The translations under genes and the position numbers were made by a program. A stretch of DNA of 6,401 nucleotides from positions 1-6,401 of the forward strand of contig CAMLNH010000168.1 in assembly GCA_946481355.1 (NCBI GenBank). The letters run 5' to 3'. Positions 927 to 1,445 of the stretch are shown in pieces (positions within the stretch are counted from its first letter, which is position 1; each line of letters starts with the position of its first letter). The stretch comes from an uncultured Curvibacter sp. (GTDB taxonomy: Bacteria > Pseudomonadota > Gammaproteobacteria > Burkholderiales > Burkholderiaceae). Below the pieces are notes generated by a model that worked only from the letters and a program-made list of their open reading frames with translations, ran no database searches and was not told the origin of the DNA.

Positions 927-933
927 GTTAGGC
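927..933 (+). other. Integron-type core site (GTTRRRY), left cassette boundary
   Basis: GTTAGGC fits the integron crossover consensus GTTRRRY, cut between G927 and T928. It is the exact reverse complement of the R'' box GCCTAAC of the attC at 1377-1383. This is expected because, in a free circular cassette, the first bases of the cassette complete its own attC. The match ties 928 and 1439 together as the two ends of one cassette. What lies to the left (attI, or a secondary GTT target) cannot be decided because no attC or integrase is seen upstream. Confidence 0.85.
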
Positions 934-1439
934 GTCTTATGCACGCATACGAACGAATTGCAAACTTCGAAATTGTCCTAGCGCGCTTTGGTCAGTGGCC
1001 AAGCTTTCACGACGGAGAGGTTCATCAGGTCGTTCTAGATCGGATGCGCCGTCATTCAAACGGCGCCTACTACGCGAGCATTGAGCTCAAGCTGCGCGGC
1101 TGGATCATGACGTCTGAAGTCACAGAGGCCGGCTACTACAAGCTCGAACACGATTCAGTGGTTCACTTTCTATTCGAAGATGTCAGTGAAGTAGAACTGT
1201 TCGGCTTAAATCACCAGAACGTCTTGTCGTCCCTTGATCTGGAACTAGCAGAAGACCAAGAGAATGGGGCCACTCTTCTCTCTGTCGAATTGGGTGATTG
1301 CTTTGGTTTGTCTGGCTCATTCAAAGCGCTGCGGGCCAAAGTCGTGTCAGTCGTTCCATATGCAGGCGAAGCAGCCGCCTAACCCTTCCATCGAGAGGAC
1401 ATGCCCCGGCAAGCCGGGTCATGCCTCTCATGTCAAACG
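928..1439 (+). mobile_element. Complete integron gene cassette (512 bp)
   Basis: The unit runs from T928 of the left core site to G1439 of the attC crossover. It has the standard compact layout: about 11 bases of leader, one open reading frame covering most of the length, then an attC that overlaps the stop codon. Its base composition is visibly less G+C-rich than the neighbouring chromosomal genes; for example, bases 1141-1200 contain 25 G or C out of 60. Cassettes are promoterless and move by integron integrase, which recombines the folded bottom strand of attC. No integrase gene is present in the window, so mobility would depend on an enzyme supplied from elsewhere. Confidence 0.85.
939..1382 (+). 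CDS. Cassette-borne Imm50-like immunity protein
   Basis: The 147-residue protein has no signal peptide or membrane segment. Motifs recalled for the Imm50 group of polymorphic-toxin immunity proteins are visible: FGQWPSFHDGEV (residues 17-28), an alternating beta-rich centre with EAGYYKLEHDSVVHFLF (63-79), ELFGLNHQNVL (86-96) and a late ELGDCFGLSGSF (117-128). Imm50 is predicted, largely by genome context, to neutralise a secreted toxin domain; no toxin gene lies beside it here. The ATG at 939 follows the core site by five bases, and the AGG of TTAGG may serve as a modest ribosome binding site. The stop TAA (1380-1382) lies inside the attC R'' box, typical of cassette genes. Expression would need read-through from upstream, since no strong promoter is visible. 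The family call rests on motif memory, not on a search. Confidence 0.72.
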   Translation: MHAYERIANFEIVLARFGQWPSFHDGEVHQVVLDRMRRHSNGAYYASIELKLRGWIMTSEVTEAGYYKLEHDSVVHFLFEDVSEVELFGLNHQNVLSSLDLELAEDQENGATLLSVELGDCFGLSGSFKALRAKVVSVVPYAGEAAA

Positions 1440-1445
1440 TTAGGA
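1377..1445 (+). other. Integron attC recombination site (59-base element)
   Basis: The outer boxes are R'' GCCTAAC (1377-1383) and R' GTTAGGA (1439-1445). Inside is a long imperfect hairpin. CAT (1389-1391) pairs with ATG (1430-1432), GAGAGG (1393-1398) with CCTCTC (1424-1429), CATG (1400-1403) with CATG (1420-1423), and CCCGG (1405-1409) with CCGGG (1414-1418) around a small loop. C1392 and A1399 are left unpaired on one arm only, and a C1404/T1419 mismatch interrupts the stem. In the bottom strand the two bulged bases are a G and a T, matching the extrahelical bases known to orient attC for the integrase. The unpaired spacer between R and L boxes is also present (1384-1388 and 1433-1438). 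All elements of a working attC are present. The last six bases of R' belong to the following DNA. Confidence 0.93.

Follow-up and report, generated by a model that had tools for sequence, protein, structure and literature searches.

The locus and its features

The window, i.e. the whole stretch of 6,401 nucleotides analysed here, carries between yebC and a gene for an IclR-family regulator a compact array, for which the following features were assigned:

3-635, + strand: yebC, left neighbour, cut by the window (TACO1/YebC domains)
676-1865, + strand: probable integrase-less integron unit with left end, attI, two cassettes and right end (profiles, blastn of 676-931, attC)
676-773, + strand: conserved left end (end profile)
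861-933, + strand: attI, crossover between G927 and T928 (profile; relatives' matches ending at the core)
869-931, + strand: leader frame in attI, 20 codons, stop codon within the core
928-1439, + strand: cassette 1, 512 bp, bounded by the core and the attC ends
939-1382, + strand: ORF of cassette 1, Imm50 family (PF15594, 28.3 bits against a cut-off of 27.1)
1377-1445, + strand: attC of cassette 1 (bottom-strand fold, two covariance models, identity to a dfrB attC)
1440-1821, + strand: probable cassette 2 of 382 bp, deduced from a core (1439/1440) plus a decayed attC
1453-1728, + strand: ORF of cassette 2, encoding 91 aa with a zinc-ribbon-like N-terminus (Zn_ribbon_RanBP, 23.6 bits, below the Pfam cut-off of 27)
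1768-1827, + strand: probable decayed attC of cassette 2 (model matches, likeness to the attC of locus L072, no fold)
1819-1877, + strand: conserved right end, outer terminus at about 1865 (42 bits with the right-end model R1; alignment A1)
1934-2797, - strand: IclR-family regulator, right neighbour (domain match)

The training rows of R1, of the left-end profile and of the attI profile include the window, whose scores with them are to be read with this in mind.

A cassette with a well-preserved attC and a probable second cassette

An earlier note on this DNA had proposed a cassette of 512 bp, exact to the base, from the match between the left core GTTAGGC (927-933) and the R'' box GCCTAAC (1377-1383). 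These two heptamers are indeed exact reverse complements and the sole two matches in the window; the match alone is weak evidence, because 12 of 200 shuffled windows contained as many core and box matches. The folded attC described in the note, with a bulged G and a bulged T on the bottom strand, is found as a hairpin of 1377-1445 in which both bulges are present (-22.1 kcal/mol, z -7.1; equalled by 0 of 200 shuffles). With complementary R''/R' boxes and a bottom-strand hairpin with extrahelical bases, 1377-1445 has the features by which an integron cassette is recognized. Moreover, 64 of its 69 bases are shared with the attC that closes a dfrB cassette of a class 1 integron carried by a Comamonas testosteroni plasmid; four of the five differences make up two compensatory stem pairs (1396/1426 and 1397/1425), and the fifth lies at position 1445, the final core base.

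As an Rfam search gave no match for the attC, we judged it with covariance models built here. Model R2 comprises 12 attCs, none of them from the window, among them the dfrB attC and a relative of 1768-1827 from L072, and has its outer stem set three columns out of register; it scored 1377-1445 with 48.6 bits, a value obtained with the dfrB attC in the training set. Model R3 comprises nine attCs in the correct register, close relatives excluded; with it, the covariance-model check proposed in the note returned 1377-1445 as the top match in the window (19.4 bits, E 0.0043). Taken together, the core and boxes, the fold, the likeness to the dfrB attC and the R3 rank set the cassette at 928-1439. 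Of 230 candidate proteins, 181 proved to be relatives of its Imm50 protein at E<=0.001, the best being 99% identical; many of them are encoded on short contigs from metagenomes, as one might expect of cassette genes.

The note had seen no further attC in the window, a view that we revise: 1768-1827 is probably a second, decayed attC that closes a cassette at 1440-1821. The segment ranks second in the window with both R2 and R3, is 79% identical to the L072 attC over 48 bp and directly precedes the right end, in the same place as the last attCs of other units. Its R2 score is 27.4 bits, with the L072 relative among the training rows; with R3 it reaches only 12.8 bits (E 0.13), which is not significant, and no stable fold of 1768-1827 was obtained (z +0.2). 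CALINs being defined by at least two attCs without intI, the tally for the 6.4-kb window is one clear attC and one probable decayed attC.

An attI homologue with a leader frame

Upstream of cassette 1, the attI profile, made from 18 sites including the window, scores 861-933 with 74.7 bits. Window segments 684-931 and 831-931 match the nearest genomes found, G001 and G002 (flanking genes with 81-88% DNA identity), at places far from yebC. Both matches end at the core, and beyond it lie different genes, those of G001 with attCs. Matches to the profile of at least 30 bits are found beside intact or broken intI in 7 of 11 loci (G291, a training row, and G004, G138, G389, G399, G312 and G162), in a set of intI loci that excludes the 57-residue matches in L146, L149 and L150 as too short. 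The intI loci of G001, G003, G011 and G229 are missed by the profile, a point against the explanation favoured here; the plasmid class 1 integron L061 gave no match either. Judged by profile and relatives, 861-933 is an attI homologue, so that the attI of a complete integron is represented; an intI beside it is absent from the 6.4-kb window. The cassette is accordingly not flanked by plain chromosome, as the note had assumed, nor isolated: it follows an attI homologue, a probable second cassette comes after it and recurring unit ends lie on both sides.

A short leader frame runs through the attI, with a likely ribosome site (AGGGTGG at 857-863, by inspection), and the start codon of cassette 1 comes 7 bases after the leader stop. 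Of 26 distinct attIs, 22 have this stop inside the core. The frame is open over at least 20 codons in 24 of the 26, which is modest evidence, since the other two frames are also often open (14/26 and 17/26). The ORF-11 leader frame of attI1 likewise ends in the core, and by this likeness translation of the leader would probably hand ribosomes to the cassette 1 gene. A promoter scan of 600-2000 found none.

Absence of the integrase

The window encodes no integrase, as the note had stated: tblastn at E<=1e-12 found none, and within 640-940 no trace of intI was better than E 5.9. The comparison of 676-868 with intI yielded no remnant, a point against the loss of intI; against intI-attI spacers, the only similarities of the same segment were a pair of 18-base stretches (E 0.054 and 0.66). 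Among related genomes, the sole trace of intI in G302 (one contig, 3.8 Mb) is a fragment of 37 bits, interrupted by a stop and below the cut-off; G362 and G002 likewise have none over the cut-off; and G001 has one, 1.3 Mb away from its unit.

In two further genomes, G312 and G162, an inverted right-end motif begins at the end of intI, and in both the gene is damaged. Only residues 15-104 of intI match in G162, where attI, genes, attC and the far end are retained, and the match is split over two frames in G312. These loci look like intermediates in intI loss. Because this end adjoins a damaged intI in both genomes, we read the units as derivatives of end-bounded integrons minus intI; against this reading, an end lies beside intI in just 2 of the 9 intI loci scanned.

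Recurrence and turnover in Comamonadaceae

Family searches were run against 399 or 329 genomes drawn from a larger group. With 670-935 as DNA query, matches occurred in 19 of 399 genomes and were strong (E<=4.2e-20) in three of them, G001, G302 (two places) and G362. An order-wide search of 399 genomes with 676-935 gave G001 and three short matches, and a plasmid search with 636-935 gave no match. Left and right ends occur together in G001 (L070), G002 (L073), G018 (L191), four units of G302 (L107, L108, L131, L132) and three units of G362 (L109, L110, L123). G362 and G302 have eight places where opposed left and right motifs are separated by 0.46-2.5 kb; at most of these attI, genes and attCs lie between the ends, and at several the last attC runs into the fixed right end. 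At L128 a gene is bounded by ends without an attI. Just outside the L128 unit, a weak tyrosine-recombinase match with a stop was noted (G302:C1:833547-833741, 22 bits).

Under strict filters R1 matched 56 of 399 Comamonadaceae genomes; 53 of 396 is the fairer count, since G001, G302 and G362 supplied training rows. An attC running into the right end was seen at 8 of 30 loci with R2, four of them copies of one transposon, and at 7 of the 30 loci scanned with R3; the right-end repeat also occurs outside arrays. In 10 of 10 genomes the bare end pattern gave fewer matches than the same pattern reversed as a control, so that bare-pattern counts prove nothing; end pairs were judged by reading.

The two ends of the window unit resemble each other in inverse orientation. 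Segment 684-720, when reversed, matches the right end with 10.3 bits (E 0.0027), and the likeness is attained by 20 of 4836 random pairs. The corresponding figures are 11 of 1500 null pairs for L073 and 46 to 1426 of 1500 for eight other units. That the ends are clearly inverted copies in just 2 of the 10 units tested is a point against our lead reading.

One site at an aminotransferase gene, common to G002, G302 and G362 (L073, L126 and L132), holds a unit in each genome; the flanks are 85-89% identical and the insides are without similarity. By this comparison, an inherited unit has changed its contents. Two G302 units at different places are 80% alike over 259 bp, and one small gene and its right-end repeat recur with 93% identity in G302 and G362 at sites that are not orthologous, and would have moved between such sites. 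Past the first right end of L126, L129 and L130, small genes alternate with right-end-like repeats. Such pairs of small gene and repeat may form gene units of a second type.

An empty unit, i.e. attI joined to a right end, was sought in 329 genomes: there were 0 exact pattern matches and seven with one mismatch, and the surroundings of these seven contained no left end and no attI better than E 0.5. For the window no empty site was found, the closest genomes, G001 and G002, placing yebC elsewhere; for L131 and L125 (12 genomes each) the searches returned variable loci without a clean join. With respect to gene order, yebC stands left of the unit in the window and between a binding-protein gene and uvrD in L001 and L002. 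In G001, G002 and G389 (L239, L240 and L244), queA is followed by a partial second copy of its own 3' end, a pattern reminiscent of a place where islands integrate.

A related array on a Tn3-family transposon

Three genomes, G217, G371 and G271, have a common 6.35-kb segment that is at least 99.95% identical, is bounded by 42-bp inverted repeats and has differing flanks (L182:154-6502; L184:2345-8688; L185, reverse, 3217-9566); a fourth, G229, has a part copy comprising the last 2.6 kb (L183). The segment encodes a Tn3-family transposase, a resolvase, a chlorite dismutase-like gene and a cupin gene, the latter named from plasmid records. It carries an end-bounded cassette pair without intI that closes in an attC and a right end; its left end is a weak match (18.1 bits), and no attI was found in the 6.35 kb. 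The cassette part has matches in 586 plasmid records, 18 of which cover at least 80% of it; among these 18 are plasmids of Cupriavidus metallidurans (pMOL28), Salmonella and E. coli, at 99.9%.

Origin of the unit

We consider it probable that 676-1865 is a small integron with an attI, two cassettes and conserved ends that lacks intI, and that it belongs to a Comamonadaceae set whose most likely source is end-bounded chromosomal integrons from which intI was deleted. The cassettes would have entered at G927/T928 by recombination between attI and attC, catalysed by an integrase that either is encoded elsewhere or acted before intI was lost. The unit would then be a storage site whose position is inherited and whose contents can change.

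The note's own reading, in which an integrase put a single cassette at an ordinary place in the chromosome (attG-type or SALIN), agrees with the lack of intI in the window; we regard it as very improbable, given that the unit ends flank both sides and that the attI homologue immediately upstream belongs to a profile that matches such sites beside intI genes. A somewhat unlikely but serious candidate is that the units are vestiges, remains of old integrons minus intI that undergo no more movement or recombination. The decayed second attC of the window, the broken intI genes of G162 and G312 and the lack of an intI over the cut-off in G302 and G362 are what one would expect of relics; the differing cassettes at the one site common to three genomes, the attCs of the window and of other units that still fold, and the presence of several units per genome speak against it.

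Spread of the units by transposition is possible. In its full form this alternative makes them MITE-like, non-autonomous elements whose attI and cassettes are copied by a transposase acting in trans, one integrase serving several docks. Conserved ends and several units at unrelated places of one genome (the dispersed copies typical of MITEs are present in G302 and G362), the likeness between the two G302 units, the 93% identical gene and repeat of G302 and G362 and the inversely alike ends of the window and L073 all point this way. We nonetheless hold it to be unlikely: no target duplication, the mark of a MITE, was seen by eye in the printed flanks of eight units, 8 of 10 end pairs are without clear inversion, the bare end pattern stays below its reversed control in all 10 genomes, the 329 genomes yielded no empty unit and no transposase could be tied to the unit ends. 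Still more doubtful, in our view, is a wider scheme in which Comamonadaceae possess a dispersed integron: several small, transposable attI docks without intI, whose contents one IntI, chromosomal or visiting, supplies and reshuffles in trans, with first cassettes expressed through the leader and units that can be lifted onto transposons and plasmids.

Relation to known systems

Integrons flanked by MITEs, and the integron mobilization unit, are enclosed by short ends and carry no transposase of their own. Our unit shares the short ends and the absent transposase; unlike them, the attI unit is itself short and lacks intI. Its leader frame ends in the core like ORF-11 of class 1 attI1. In PMC7923331, CALIN and SALIN denote attC sites without an integron integrase; the unit is like them in that its cassettes have attCs and intI is not nearby, and unlike them in that it keeps an attI with a leader frame and conserved ends and recurs in related genomes. 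Its attI and attC type resemble those of betaproteobacterial chromosomal and class 1 integrons as presented in PMC5460862, from which it differs by the lack of intI and by several units per genome. The Delta-attI gene cassettes of mobile integrons are, according to PMC12901181, cassettes closed by pieces of attI; in both cases attI sequence lies away from its usual single place, but in our unit the attI is in its normal position ahead of the cassettes. In searches of open-access literature no title or abstract dealt with dispersed attI units without intI, which is weak evidence as most subscription papers fall outside this scope. The parts are already known; the recurrent, end-bounded form that keeps its attI did not turn up in those searches.

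Implications

The unit bears on the origin of resistance cassettes, as the window attC nearly equals that of a dfrB cassette. For dfrB, an origin in Comamonadaceae hosts has been proposed, in contexts considered to lack mobility markers (PMC11662351). A related end-bounded cassette pair is already on a Tn3-family transposon in this family, and its cassette part is on plasmids. Searches based on intI have nothing to find in such units.

The usual picture of an integron is one integrase, one attI and one array, with cassettes elsewhere being debris. If an attI unit without intI stays at its inherited site while its contents change, storage need not be coupled to the enzyme, and Comamonadaceae may keep gene storage apart from the enzyme of capture.
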